Shown here: positions 59,128 through 63,826 of the stretch, in pieces
How positions within the stretch are numbered: position 1 is the stretch's first letter
Layout of the letters: every line of letters begins with the position of its first letter
Notes under the pieces: model-generated
Seen by the model: only the letters and a program-made list of their open reading frames with translations
Told to the model about the DNA's origin: nothing
Databases searched by the model: none
From: Labilithrix sp.
Lineage (GTDB): Bacteria; Myxococcota_A; Polyangia; Polyangiales; Polyangiaceae
Length of the DNA stretch: 64,000 nucleotides
Assembly: GCA_019637195.1 (NCBI GenBank)
Contig: JAHBWA010000032.1
Span: forward strand, 1 to 64,000
Reading direction: 5' to 3'
Program-made: the position numbers and the translations under genes

Positions 59128-59278
59128 CCCCGCGCAGGTCGGTCCCGCGCGACGGCCGGGGCGAGCGCGGACGCTCCCACGCGAGCGCAACCGCGCTGAC
59201 GACGCTTCTCGTCGTGCTCGAGAGTTGTGGTGCTTGAAAGACCGCGGAGCCTGCGCTATTCGTGTGCGCTCTCGATTC

Positions 59279-59350
59279 GGGCGCATAACTCAGCGGTAGA
59301 GTGCGACCTTCACACGGTTGAAGTCGGGGGTTCAAGTCCCTCTGCGCCCA
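59279..59350 (+). tRNA. tRNA-Val (anticodon CAC)
   Basis: A 72-base cloverleaf: acceptor GGGCGCA/TGCGCCC, D-arm ACTC-AGCGGTA-GAGT, anticodon stem CGACC/GGTTG with loop TTCACAC giving CAC (reads GTG, valine), T-arm GGGGG-TTCAAGT-CCCTC. CCA is not encoded. Its 3' half is duplicated 2,190 bases downstream, which marks it as an integration site. Confidence 0.97.
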
Positions 59351-59351
59351 C
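59308..59351 (+). repeat. left copy of the 44-bp tRNA-Val repeat (attL-like)
   Basis: This spans the anticodon loop to one base past the tRNA's 3' end. It matches 61498-61541 at 43 of 44 positions. Integration into the 3' half of a tRNA, restoring the gene, is typical of tyrosine-integrase elements. Confidence 0.75.
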
Positions 59352-59536
59352 GAATTAGCCGGAGTTTTTGAAGATTTTCCGGGCCTCCGGGCCAGCGAGC
59401 TCCGGGCGGCTCGGGAAGGTCTGGTGAAGAGGTCTCCGAGGTCCCGGAGACGTCGAACGTAGAGCTGCTGGGCATCGGCTCTACGTCGGCGTAGCTGACC
59501 AAGGCGACGCGCTCCGAGCGAGCGCCGCGGCCGCGG

Positions 59537-60163
59537 TCAGCTGCTTCGGCGCGCCCATCGCTCGAGCTCGCGCGCGACGAGCGCGAAGTCGAAGGCCTTT
59601 GGATTGATCCCGAGCTGGGCGGTCGCGCCGATCACGAACGCGGTGACGATCCGTGCTCCGGCGGCGGGATCGAGGTCGGCGCGCAACTCCTTGCGCTCGA
59701 TCCCGCCCCGGATCACCTCCTCGACCACGCCGTTCCAGAACGAGTGGAGTGTCTTCAGGGCGCCCCGCGCGGCAGGATCGCGCTGAGCCCGCGCGAGGAG
59801 CTCCTGGAGGATCACCGAGAGATGTGGCGCCGTCTGGAAGCTGCGCCACGCCGACTCGAGGTGGGCTCGCAGCGTCTCCTTCCCGGGTTCGCGCCCTGAT
59901 TCGCGCTGCGTGAACGTATCGCGCACGCGCTCGACGACCGCGACGAGGAGCTCCTCTTTCGTCCCGAAGTAATAGTGGAGGGTCGAGATGTTCACGCCCG
60001 CGCGCGCGGCGATGTCACGCGTCCGCAGGCCCTCGAGCCCCTTCTCCGCGATGAGGGTGTAGGCAGCGTCGAGGAGCTCGCTCCGGCGTTCGTCTCGCGG
60101 GAGCTGGCTCTCGCTCGGGGCCTCGCGCTTCTTGCGAGCTCCCGCTCGGGCTGTTCGGGGCAT
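59537..60163 (-). CDS. TetR-family regulator on the tRNA-Val segment
   Basis: A 208-residue regulator; ATG 60163 was chosen because it gives a normal basic N-terminus (MPRTARAGARKKREAPSESQLP). The helix-turn-helix is LLDAAYTLIAEKGLEGLRTRDIAARAGVNISTLHYYFGTKEELLVAVVERV, about residues 33-83. The ligand domain is helical (LRAHLESAWRSFQTAPHLSVILQELLARAQRD). It faces the DUF2141 gene across a perfect palindrome, so it probably represses both directions and responds to a small ligand. Confidence 0.9.
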   Translation of the reverse strand: MPRTARAGARKKREAPSESQLPRDERRSELLDAAYTLIAEKGLEGLRTRDIAARAGVNISTLHYYFGTKEELLVAVVERVRDTFTQRESGREPGKETLRAHLESAWRSFQTAPHLSVILQELLARAQRDPAARGALKTLHSFWNGVVEEVIRGGIERKELRADLDPAAGARIVTAFVIGATAQLGINPKAFDFALVARELERWARRSS

Positions 60164-60233
60164 CCCGGCGGACGCTAAGCGAGCCACCGCCGCCGGAGCA
60201 AGTCCTTGACTTCGGTTCGACCGTTCGTAGAGC

Positions 60234-60247
60234 CAATCATATGATTG
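60234..60247. promoter_or_regulatory. TetR-type operator palindrome
   Basis: CAATCATATGATTG is a perfect 14-bp palindrome, with a related imperfect copy (AATCAAATGATT) ten bases on. Its right half contains the ATG (60241) of the DUF2141 gene. It lies in the intergenic space of two divergent genes, one of which is a TetR regulator. Confidence 0.6.
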
Positions 60248-60711
60248 AATCAAATGATTGCACCGCATCGACACCGTCCCGACGGGTCGCCCAGTGCGGC
60301 ATCGCGTTGATCGTCCTCGCGTCGCCCGCATTCGCGGAGGAGAGCGGGACACTGACGGTCCGAGTGATGGGCCTGCGGTCGAGCACGGGGCGGGTCGGTT
60401 GCACGATCTTCGACGGGCCGCGTGGCTTCCCCGTCGACCCGACGGCCGCGCTGAAGCAGCGGTGGTGCCCTATCGAGGGCTCGACCTCGTCGTGCCGCTT
60501 CGAAGCGCTCACGCGTGGGACGTACGCGGCCGCGTGCTTCCACGACGAGAACGGCAACGGCGCGCTCGATCGAGGTGTCTTCGGGATCCCGAAGGAGGGC
60601 ACCGTCGCCTCGAACCACGCGAGGGGGACACTCGGCCCTCCGCGCTTCGCCGACGCGAGTTTCGCGTTCTCGGGCACGCCCGCCGATCTCGCTCTCCGGA
60701 TGGGGTACTGA
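60241..60711 (+). CDS. DUF2141 exported protein
   Basis: A 156-residue protein. A signal peptide is visible after a 15-residue polar start (CGIALIVLASPAFA), ending AFA. The rest matches DUF2141 closely: GTLTVRVMGLRSSTGRVGCTIFDG, RGTYAAACFHDENGNGALDRGVFGIPKEGTVASNHARGTLGPPRFADASF. The HDENGNGALD-type segment may bind calcium. Function of the family is unknown. Start is uncertain; ATG 60241 overlaps the operator. It is followed two bases later by the VOC gene, in the same operon. Confidence 0.85.
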   Translation: MIESNDCTASTPSRRVAQCGIALIVLASPAFAEESGTLTVRVMGLRSSTGRVGCTIFDGPRGFPVDPTAALKQRWCPIEGSTSSCRFEALTRGTYAAACFHDENGNGALDRGVFGIPKEGTVASNHARGTLGPPRFADASFAFSGTPADLALRMGY

Positions 60712-60713
60712 CC

Positions 60714-61307
60714 ATGCACGACCTCCTACGCGTCCTTCGAAACGGGACGATCGCCGCCGGCTTCGGCCTCTTCATGTGGTACCTGCGCGCAAAACATCGC
60801 GCCCGCGCGCTCGTGCGGCCGGGGCTCGGCTACGTCGACCACGTGACGATCCCGGTGCATGATCTCGACGTCGCCCGGCGCTTCTATTGCGACGTGCTCG
60901 GTGCAGCCGAGATCATGACGATCGACGCCGAGGCACTTCGGAGGTTCGGCCGCCCGCCCGCACCGAACGGAGGCGACGGCGTCTTTCACGTCTCGCTGTG
61001 CGTCGGCGGCACGACGCGGCTCGACCTCTTCCTGCAGCGCCGCGGCCAGCCCGCTCTTGTCCAGGGACACCCGCACTACGCATTCCGGGTCTCCCCACGC
61101 GCGATGCGGGTATGGAAGCGCCGTCTCGAGTCCTTCGGAGTCCCGACCGAAGGTCCGCTGCAGCTCGGGTTTCCGGGGCAGGCATCGCTCTACTTCAACG
61201 ATCCGTCGGGCAACCACCTCGAGATCGTCTGCCACGGCTTCTGGCACGAGATCCCGATCCGCCCACCGGTCATGACCGGCCTCGCATGGCGGCCGACCGA
61301 GGAGTAG
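60714..61307 (+). CDS. VOC-superfamily protein with N-terminal membrane helix
   Basis: A 197-residue protein. One hydrophobic segment at about 10-25 (NGTIAAGFGLFMWYLRAK) could anchor it. The VOC (glyoxalase/bleomycin-resistance) fold follows: YVDHVTIPVHDLDVARRFYCDVLGA with a His metal ligand, LDLFLQRRGQPALVQGHPHYAFRV with a second, and YFNDPSGNHLEIVCHGF with Glu as a third. So a metal site is likely. VOC proteins range from glyoxalase to dioxygenases; the substrate is unknown. It is co-transcribed with DUF2141. Confidence 0.87.
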   Translation: MHDLLRVLRNGTIAAGFGLFMWYLRAKHRARALVRPGLGYVDHVTIPVHDLDVARRFYCDVLGAAEIMTIDAEALRRFGRPPAPNGGDGVFHVSLCVGGTTRLDLFLQRRGQPALVQGHPHYAFRVSPRAMRVWKRRLESFGVPTEGPLQLGFPGQASLYFNDPSGNHLEIVCHGFWHEIPIRPPVMTGLAWRPTEE

Positions 61308-61497
61308 GGGTGGGACGGTCGCGAAGCGAGATGCGTGCATTTCGCACGGTCCTCCCCGCTTGGCCCGCAATCTCCCCTCCGTCCTCCCCACTTGGGCCGT
61401 AACGCACCGTCACGCATGGAGCGCTCGGGTAACACCTTTCAGCGGAATTTCCCTGCTTTCGTAACGGCTCGTCACGCCCAGAGACGGGGTTTCTCCT

Positions 61498-61541
61498 CTT
61501 CACACGGTTGAAGTCGGGGGTTCAAGTCCCTCCGCGCCCAC
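61498..61541 (+). repeat. right copy of the tRNA-Val repeat (attR-like)
   Basis: The same 44 bp, one mismatch (C at 61533 for T). Upstream bases do not form the 5' half of a tRNA, so this is a fragment. It is followed 20 bases later by a strong factor-independent terminator, which was presumably the original tRNA-Val terminator. Confidence 0.75.
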
Positions 61542-61560
61542 CCAAAGCCACGTGACAGGA

Positions 61561-61593
61561 GCCGGTTGAGGCCCCCCCTCAGCCGGCTTTTTT
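61561..61593 (+). terminator. factor-independent terminator
   Basis: GCCGGTTGAGG pairs with CCTCAGCCGGC (one G-U pair, 11 bp) around a CCCCC loop, then six T. It stands 20 bases after the tRNA fragment and would have ended the tRNA transcript before the insertion. Confidence 0.9.
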
Positions 61594-61677
61594 CGAGGCG
61601 CACCGCGTTCGGTAGCTGGCCGCCACGACCGCCCGCTGCGCATCGCGATCGAAGCCGCCGTGTGCGACCATTCGAGC

Positions 61678-61917
61678 ATGCTGGAGCTACGTCCGAGCTG
61701 TGAGTGTTGCGGGCGCGACCTTCCGCCCGACTGCCGAGACGCCCTCATCTGTTCGTTCGAGTGCACCTTCTGCGCGGAGTGCGCCGAGTCGCCGCTGAAC
61801 GCAACGTGCCCGAACTGCGGAGGCGAGCTTGTTCCTCGCCCTCGCAGACCTGCAAGCAAGCTGGCGAACCATCCTCCGTCGCAGCGTCGCGTCGTCCGTC
61901 CTCATGGCTGCGCGTGA
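61678..61917 (+). CDS. DUF1272 small zinc-ribbon protein
   Basis: A 79-residue protein beginning MLELRPSCECCGRDLPPDCRDALICSFECTFCAECAESPLNATCPNCGGELVPRPRR, an almost exact DUF1272 sequence. Nine cysteines (CECC, CSFECTFCAEC, CPNC) form zinc-binding knuckles. Function of the family is unknown. A GTG at 61660 is possible but unnecessary. Confidence 0.92.
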   Translation: MLELRPSCECCGRDLPPDCRDALICSFECTFCAECAESPLNATCPNCGGELVPRPRRPASKLANHPPSQRRVVRPHGCA

Positions 61918-62001
61918 CGGAGGACACGTGGCGCGACCCAGCGCGGCGACGGCATCCTCTGCCGGTAGCCGTCGCCATCCCGTTCCACCCGGCGGTCGGC
62001 T

Positions 62002-62093
62002 CGACTCACCGGCCGTCGTGACGACTCACCGGCCGTCGTGACGACTCACCGGCCGTCGTGACGACTCACCGGCCGTCGTGACGACTCACCGGC
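62002..62093. repeat. 20-bp tandem repeat, about 4.6 copies
   Basis: Perfect copies of CGACTCACCGGCCGTCGTGA start at 62002, 62022, 62042, 62062 and, partly, 62082. Each junction makes the palindrome GTCGT-G-ACGAC. The last partial copy reaches the stop codon and 3' end of the alpha/beta hydrolase gene (TGA at 62086-62088). Confidence 0.95.
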
Positions 62094-62955
62094 GCGCGGG
62101 GGTCCGCTCGGCGTGCGTCGCGCTGCCGTCGCAGGGATAGAGGCCGCCCTGCGCCTTGAGCGTGCCGCTGCCGTCTTGCCGGAAGAAGCGGACGGCCGCT
62201 TCGACGTCGCTCGTGGTCAGCGCCGCGCTGCCGCCGCGCGGGCAGTAGCCGTGCGCCCAGCTGGCCTGCGCGAGGGTGTCGTGCAGCGCCTTCGTCTTCG
62301 CCGAGGGCTCGGGCTCGTCTTGCCCCGCCACGAGGAGCACCGGGCGGGCGTCGGTCTTGGGTGAAGGCGCGCCGAGCGCGCCACCGTTCACCACCGCGTA
62401 GGCCTGACCGGGAAAGATCCGGTGGGTCGCGAGGTAGGCCGCGAAGAAGCCGCCGTTCGACGAGCCGAGGACGTAGCGCTTGTGGGTGCCGCCCTCGAGC
62501 AGCGCGTCGACCTGCCAGAGGACGCGCTCCCACTCGCCGACGATGCCTTTCATCGTCGGCGTGTCCTCGGCGTCCAGCGGCCAGCAGTAGTGGTCCTTGA
62601 GCTCCGCGCGCCACGCGCAGAGGCCGCGCTTGCCGCGGGGGATGACGACCGCGAACCCGCGGTCGAGCGCGACGCTCACGGCGGCCCACTCCTCCGGCGA
62701 GCCGTGGCCCGTGTACATGCCGTGGAGGTAGACGAGCACCGGCGTCTCCTTGCTCGGGTGCTCGGGGATCGCGAAGCAGGTGTCGGAGGGCCCGGCCTCG
62801 AAGCGGTCCGGGCACCACGTCTCGCCGGCGTGCGACAAGGTCGGCGGCTTGCCGTCCGCCGCGGCGGAGCCCTGGCAGCCGCCGGCCACCACGGCGAGCG
62901 CAGCGGCTCCCGCGACGGCGACGACAGTGGCGAGCGGCCCCCGGAGCATCTTCAT
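62086..62955 (-). CDS. alpha/beta-hydrolase lipoprotein
   Basis: A 289-residue lipoprotein, ATG 62955, four bases after the ysxC stop. The signal peptide ends GGC. The hydrolase body has PVLVYLHGMYTG (oxyanion region), VIPRGKRG, the nucleophile elbow GSSNGGFFAAYLAT (Ser), and VLLVAGQDEPEPSAKTKAL around the Asp. The His was not placed with certainty. The substrate is unknown; the fold is PHB depolymerase/esterase-like. The tandem repeat overlaps its 3' end. Confidence 0.85.
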   Translation of the reverse strand: MKMLRGPLATVVAVAGAAALAVVAGGCQGSAAADGKPPTLSHAGETWCPDRFEAGPSDTCFAIPEHPSKETPVLVYLHGMYTGHGSPEEWAAVSVALDRGFAVVIPRGKRGLCAWRAELKDHYCWPLDAEDTPTMKGIVGEWERVLWQVDALLEGGTHKRYVLGSSNGGFFAAYLATHRIFPGQAYAVVNGGALGAPSPKTDARPVLLVAGQDEPEPSAKTKALHDTLAQASWAHGYCPRGGSAALTTSDVEAAVRFFRQDGSGTLKAQGGLYPCDGSATHAERTPARR

Positions 62956-62959
62956 CAGT

Positions 62960-63826
62960 CTACACGAGCTCCTCGGGTGACACGACCTCGGGTGACGCAA
63001 CCTCGTCCGCGCGACACGCATCGAGGATGCGCGCCCAGAGCACCTCGCGCCCCGCGCCGGTCTCGGCGCTCGTGCCGACGACCGCGAGGCGTTCGCCGTC
63101 CGGACCGCGCGCCAGCTTGGCCAGCGCCGGCTTCTGCGCCGAGAGGGAGAGCTTGTCGACCTTCGTCGCGGCGACGATGACCCGGATGCCGGGGCGCTCC
63201 GCGAGGAACTCGACGAGGTCGGCCTCCTCGTCCTCGAGGCCACGCCGGACGTCGACGAGGACCACCACCGCGCGGAGCGTCGGTCGCTCGTGGAGGTAGC
63301 CCTCGAGCAGCTGCTTCCACGCCGTCGCCTCGCTCTTCGAGACCTTGGCGTAGCCGTAGCCCGGGAGATCGACGAAGACGAGCCGCGGCGGCACCTCGAA
63401 CTTCTCGTTCGCGGCGAGGTGGATGTCGAAGAAGTTGATCTGCCGCGTGCAGCCGGGCGTGTTGCTCGTGCGCGCGAGGCCCTTGCGCGAGAGCATCATG
63501 TTGAGCAGGCTCGACTTGCCGACGTTCGAGCGTCCCGCGAAGGCGATCTCGTGAGCGTCGTCGAAGAGGCTCGTCGCCGGGACCTGATCGCGCCGCGCGG
63601 CGCCGGCGGCGAACTCCGCGTCCGCGACGCGCACGCCGCCCTCGCCCTTCCCCGCAGCGAGCTTGCCGGCGCTCGCGCCCTTCCCCGCGGCGGGCTTGCC
63701 GGCGCTCGGCGCGCCCTTCCCCGCGGCGGGCTTGCCGGTGCCCGCACCGCCGCTACCGGCCTTCGAGGGGCCCGGTCGGGCGACGTTCTTCTTGGCGGTC
63801 ACGTTCTTCGAAGCCACGGTGCTCAC
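62960..63826 (-). CDS. ysxC: YsxC/EngB ribosome-assembly GTPase with repetitive N-terminus
   Basis: A 288-residue GTPase from GTG 63826. G1 FAGRSNVGKSSLLNMMLS at about 93-110, then NTPGCTRQINFF (G2), VFVDLPGYGYAKVS (G3), IVAATKVDKLS (G4) and a G5-like segment. EngB acts late in large ribosomal subunit assembly and is usually about 200 residues; here a 75-residue Lys/Gly/Ala extension (SAGKPAAGKGA-like, 4-5 units of KPAAGKG) precedes the domain. Complete and probably essential. Confidence 0.93.
   Translation of the reverse strand: MSTVASKNVTAKKNVARPGPSKAGSGGAGTGKPAAGKGAPSAGKPAAGKGASAGKLAAGKGEGGVRVADAEFAAGAARRDQVPATSLFDDAHEIAFAGRSNVGKSSLLNMMLSRKGLARTSNTPGCTRQINFFDIHLAANEKFEVPPRLVFVDLPGYGYAKVSKSEATAWKQLLEGYLHERPTLRAVVVLVDVRRGLEDEEADLVEFLAERPGIRVIVAATKVDKLSLSAQKPALAKLARGPDGERLAVVGTSAETGAGREVLWARILDACRADEVASPEVVSPEELV

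Follow-up and report, generated by a model that had tools for sequence, protein, structure and literature searches.

The locus described here raises the question of how a short three-gene segment without an integrase gene came to lie between a tRNA gene and a displaced copy of its 3' part, and whether it can still move. The window, that is, the whole stretch of DNA analysed, comprises 64,000 nt of Labilithrix sp. (GCA_019637195.1, contig JAHBWA010000032.1, positions 1–64,000, forward strand). The features of the locus are as follows:

59279–59351, + strand: tRNA-Val(CAC) (ARAGORN), whose 3' part (59308–59351) is the left attachment copy (attL)
59352–59536, no strand: left end of the element, without integrase and without iterons matching the right end (8-mer comparison; remnant search)
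59537–60166, − strand: TetR-family regulator, cargo (Pfam PF00440, E = 1.6e-16)
60241–60711, + strand: DUF2141 protein, cargo (Pfam PF09912, E = 1e-27)
60714–61307, + strand: VOC/glyoxalase-family protein, cargo (Pfam PF00903, E = 5e-12)
61369–61492, + strand: conserved right end, ~125 bp (models R1, R2 and nhmmer: E = 5e-35, 1.8e-23 and 1.4e-27)
61498–61541, + strand: displaced tRNA-Val 3' part, the right attachment copy (attR; repeat match 43/44)
61558–61594 (approximate), + strand: terminator originally 3' of the tRNA gene (directly after tRNA-Val in the congener G006)

The tRNA-flanked segment and its empty site

The tRNA-Val(CAC) gene and the displaced 3' copy lie in the same orientation at opposite ends of the ~2.15-kb (2.2-kb) segment. 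A preliminary description had claimed 44-bp near-perfect repeats, one in the tRNA and one before a terminator, and both ARAGORN and a repeat search confirmed this: the direct repeats (59308–59351 and 61498–61541) are 44 bp long, identical at 43 positions, and 2190 bp apart. Within the tRNA, the repeated part opens with the final base of the 5' anticodon stem, takes in the loop and all that follows, and extends one base beyond the discriminator. The same description had a T/C missing at 61533; the divergence at that base is real, but it is a substitution (T59343 versus C61533), the sole mismatch, and no base is missing. In the displaced fragment, this substitution would break an acceptor-stem pair, as expected for a copy free of selection. 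The second copy is followed by a GC-rich hairpin and a T run (AGCCGGTTGAGG...CCTCAGCCGGCTTTTTT, about 61558–61594). Since a 44-bp match to the tRNA 3' half stands just 5' of the tRNA's own terminator, a chance origin is excluded. The G+C content is ~0.68 within the segment versus ~0.73 outside.

Between the repeats, the TetR, DUF2141, and VOC genes are intact and nothing further is recognisable, and the Pfam results thus agree with the gene content first reported. The VOC gene starts 2 nt past the DUF2141 stop, and an N-terminal hydrophobic stretch of the DUF2141 protein, judged by eye, suggests export. Of the 11 congeners, 10 have no VOC relative at E ≤ 1e-25, and one (G001) has a match of only 40%; the finding named beforehand as speaking against an insertion, namely the same genes in place in every relative, was therefore not obtained. 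The closest VOC relative, 72% identical and with an adjoining TetR gene, is found in G120, and the divergent TetR-VOC pair is present in G117 and G113 as well. Movement of the cargo with the right end elsewhere was considered and rejected, as the VOC locus of G120 has neither a right end nor a tRNA nearby and yielded no donor element.

The congener G006 has the same tRNA and the same upstream 40–50 bp, followed directly by the same terminator, and the cargo is absent. Joining the window tRNA to the sequence after 61541 reproduces this arrangement, which is what had been anticipated for relatives lacking the segment. Given this empty site, the segment is an insertion, or it was lost precisely in G006. 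Site-specific integration, as proposed at the outset, is backed by the empty site together with integrase-bearing relatives (see below), one of them in the same tRNA-Val(CAC). Of the features that mark tRNA-integrated genomic islands, the segment has the tRNA with its 3' fragment and the empty site, and lacks the integrase gene. Repeats of a tRNA part could also arise by tandem or segmental duplication around resident genes, an origin that drew support from no tool result. It is contradicted by the empty site in G006, and neither a conserved right end beside differing tRNA halves nor integrase-bearing copies at the same tRNA would be expected from it; we regard duplication as extremely improbable.

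The region 59227–62085 (tRNA-Val, element, terminator, and a DUF1272 gene) is inverted relative to the adjoining genes for a hydrolase (62086–62956) and an engB-like GTPase (62960–63826); the relatives checked have the tRNA downstream of the hydrolase and GTPase genes, in the same orientation. The inversion is either real or an assembly fault, and a 20-bp tandem repeat (GACTCACCGGCCGTCGTGAC, about 4–5 copies, 61989–62093) is located at its breakpoint by the hydrolase gene.

The conserved right end and its integrase family

The right-end block consists of two to three iterons, which share a CCAC(C/T)T end and vary in their 5' part between elements, and a better conserved part with CGTNACG repeats about 10–11 bp apart. 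In the window, the iterons are of the CCTCCCCACTT type, with further copies upstream from about 61347, and the CGTNACG repeats follow; this right end is undecayed (85 bits, third best of all). The models R1 and R2 are sequence-only. Right ends were detected at E ≤ 0.01 in 32 of 108 Polyangiaceae genomes, most of which are fragmented MAGs with frequent contig breaks near element ends; the right end was itself the search key, and elements without one go uncounted. Most strong matches were followed by the 3' half of tRNA-Val(CAC), tRNA-Val(GAC), or tRNA-Gly, and the block of G005 stands before a tRNA-Val(GAC) fragment. Folding of the right end as RNA was no better than that of shuffled sequences (z = −0.02) and covariation was negligible (3 sequences); an RNA structure was thus rejected, and the right end was treated as a set of DNA sites. 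The iterons were also suspected of resembling IS21-type ends, a lead made needless by the association with an integrase.

Three right ends (L085, L090, and L100, in G096 and G068) are followed only by the tRNA anticodon-stem core (e.g., CCTTGACGCGGTAGGGGT) and then by unrelated sequence; these are secondary sites or rearranged arrays. A second right end in G011, shortened and without a tRNA half, was not counted as an element.

The PF00589 matches near several right ends belong to one tyrosine-integrase family (A3) of 430–480 aa, most full copies of which show 37–65% identity. This family was found in 30 of the 108 Polyangiaceae genomes and, phylum-wide, in 25 of 377 genomes (E ≤ 1e-40). Its named records come from Polyangiaceae and Myxococcales, with Minicystis rosea DSM 24000 among them. 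The gene lies directly beside the tRNA 3' end and reads toward the tRNA in most complete copies, the adjoining tRNAs being Val-GAC, Gly-GCC, Gly-CCC, Val-CAC, and Arg-TCG. A tree of 21 copies indicated that close relatives can occupy different tRNAs (G066 at Val-CAC beside G091 at Gly). An integrase of G014, on a contig bearing tRNA-Val(CAC), was discarded as a case of insertion at CAC, as it sits at tRNA-Val(GAC). Five elements were complete with both ends on one contig (7.7–44 kb), all with an integrase:

G066: 7.7 kb, with integrase, in tRNA-Val(CAC) of another genus than the window's
G011: 25 kb, with integrase
G091: 35 kb, with integrase
G055: 39.5 kb, with integrase
G083 (Minicystis rosea): 43.8 kb, with integrase

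Full members, which are annotated only in part, have, from the tRNA outward, first a terminator and then iterons particular to the element, an integrase gene directed toward the tRNA, and cargo; the cargo is followed by the same iterons with the conserved CGTNACG block and then the tRNA half. The cargo of G011 includes type I restriction genes, a Prim-Pol protein, and a Dsr1-like protein. Each integrase-bearing element has one iteron type at both the tRNA end and the right end, and this type differs between elements. For six pairs, 8-mers common to an element's own left and right ends gave a diagonal sum of 61 versus a permutation mean of 20, the best of 720 assignments; one pair (G000 C364/C86, from the window's own genome) was itself joined by iteron type, and without it the true left-right assignment was still the best of 120. 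Judged only by position, pairing, and repeats, the paired iterons are most likely arm-type binding sites of the integrase.

On contig C86 of the same genome (4484–10570; L180, L214), a right end with a tRNA-Gly half is followed 5.9 kb further on by another tRNA-Gly half. This unit has other paired iterons (CTGGTGTGGCGAGTGGTGTGG-like) at both ends and is possibly a second element family in tandem.

The missing left arm and the history of the segment

The absence of the integrating enzyme from the segment, noted from the start, held under closer search: no integrase gene was detected by Pfam, and no tyrosine-recombinase remnant was found in six frames with filters off (best E = 4). The left 300 nt and the right 160 nt share 0 8-mers, compared with 4–17 in integrase-bearing elements. 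The segment thus has a right end abutting a tRNA 3' half, as expected of the family; because same-type left iterons and an A3 integrase beside the tRNA are absent, it is called a derivative and not a full member. In shared 8-mers, its right end comes closest to the left ends of three integrase-bearing elements, G091, G066, and G011. In the window's own genome (G000; a fragmented assembly of 381 contigs, in which a cognate integrase may be missed), no integrase with matching iterons was found, and the only A3-family integrase, on C364, has GGAGCACAC iterons, another type than the window's.

Contig C319 of this genome (L091:32–3202) carries a right end of the same element family, ending in a tRNA-Val(GAC) half, and, 1.8 kb from it, another tyrosine integrase (405 aa, ~23% identity). 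It was rejected as an own-genome helper, since this integrase belongs to a different family and the contig breaks off short of its tRNA.

A second integrase-less insertion, of 1.8 kb, occupies the same tRNA-Val(CAC) in the congener G009. Its cargo is unrelated to the window's and comprises a winged-helix/nucleotidyltransferase pair matching PADLOC PDC-M21A/B, a candidate defence system (L037:10385–11664). As in the window, there is a right arm only: the element's own ends share no 8-mers, no integrase remnant was found in the segment, and G009 has no A3-family integrase at all. Over the last 150 bp before the tRNA fragment, the two congeners are 79% identical, a similarity of noncoding right ends no lower than that of the coding genes next to them (72–75%).

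Related states occur elsewhere in the family. In G055, a tandem second unit of 40 kb retains only an integrase remnant, G019 also contains an integrase remnant, and a 15-kb unit in G062 has no detected remnant; in G041, G094, and G083, a right end is followed by a neighbour's integrase. The remnants beside or inside other elements point to repeated integrase loss in the family.

We consider it probable that the window segment is an integrase-less, CIME-like derivative of this Polyangiaceae integrative-element family that has lost its left arm and integrase; we infer the loss of the integrase from the relatives, as the segment itself holds no remnant. A parent element would have recombined, through a tyrosine integrase, with the anticodon-loop/3' part of the tRNA-Val(CAC) gene; its own copy would have restored the tRNA, and the original 3' part was moved with the terminator to the element's far side, a displacement made visible by the empty site. 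It counts against this reading that the left arm and integrase must be supposed to have been lost twice (in the window and in G009), or else once in a common ancestor, with the cargo replaced afterwards. With its left iterons and integrase lost and its right end well preserved, the segment would be immobile by itself, and its movement would presumably require a related integrase whose arm specificity is of the CTCCCCAC type, acting either on the segment alone or on a tandem formed with a new element at the same tRNA.

As a special history within this explanation, the segment may be the downstream unit of a tandem array from which an upstream integrase-bearing element was excised. The two units of G055 and the junctions in G041, G094, and G083 attest to such arrays in the family; however, no partner is left at the site, and one present-day locus cannot tell this history, which we hold to be conceivable but rather improbable.

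A true satellite would consist of a right arm and core only, integrate in trans through a related integrase, and spread with changing cargo. The one-armed architecture that the window and G009 share, with unrelated cargo in the same tRNA of two congeners, would suit such an element, as would the undecayed right end and the similarity of the noncoding right ends relative to their coding neighbours, which points to constraint or recent exchange. However, an integrase with matching iterons was found in neither genome (G000 or G009), every integrase-bearing copy known at both ends has left iterons, a sign that these are required, and no identical integrase-less element was seen at two places; we therefore think a satellite unlikely. 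The first reading had left "mobilisable satellite cargo or relic" side by side; because the segment lacks left iterons and its genome yielded no integrase with iterons to match, a stranded remnant is likelier than an active satellite, and neither is proven. As an integrase-less derivative, the segment is probably stranded and possibly movable by the integrase of a related element.

A broader and more doubtful conjecture is that Polyangiaceae carry minimal one-armed elements of ~2 kb (cargo, right iterons, and tRNA core) mobilised in trans by the integrases of larger relatives. These would be the tRNA-based equivalent of integron cassettes that lack an integrase, and the variable paired iterons would serve as address tags for a specific helper.

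Comparison with known systems

The kind of element is known, and a description of the family was not found in the literature searched, which left most subscription journals outside. As a derivative, the window segment is of an ordinary kind. It leads to a Polyangiaceae family of integrative elements that target tRNA genes, with the cultured Minicystis rosea among the hosts; a type I restriction system and a Dsr1-like defence gene are examples of the cargo in full members. As the end iterons match within an element and differ from one element to the next, helper specificity is open to direct testing.

Tycheposons and other phage satellites are inserted in tRNA genes, use a tyrosine recombinase, and carry variable cargo, in some cases with defence genes. 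The likeness to tycheposons considered here is one of general features, and their hosts belong to another phylum. The window segment contains no packaging, capsid-hijack, or helper-induction genes by Pfam. Tycheposons and other phage satellites are listed in PMC11389934.

Islands in the Islander catalogue likewise have a tRNA and a displaced 3' fragment at their ends and a tyrosine integrase in full members (PMC4383910). Islander drops candidates without an integrase or shorter than 2 kb (PMC4383910), so the integrase-less class of the window segment is absent from it.

The segment resembles a cis-mobilizable element (CIME), as defined in PMC5704250, in being att-flanked at a tRNA 3' end, in lacking integration and transfer genes (only the TetR, DUF2141, and VOC genes lie inside, by Pfam), and in its derivation from an integrase-bearing element, in a family that shows tandem accretion. 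Both core copies (43/44) and the right arm are retained. It differs in lacking left arm-type iterons, and the missing left arm makes a functional attL doubtful; moreover, its parents are known as integrase-bearing elements, not as ICEs or IMEs.

The Dehalococcoides ssrA islands, about half of which lack an integration module, use a serine recombinase and a tmRNA target, in contrast to the tyrosine integrase, several tRNA targets, and paired iterons found here (PMC3146451). They share with the present family an RNA gene and a 3' repeat as bounds, a conserved motif abutting the repeat, and integrase-less members (PMC3146451).
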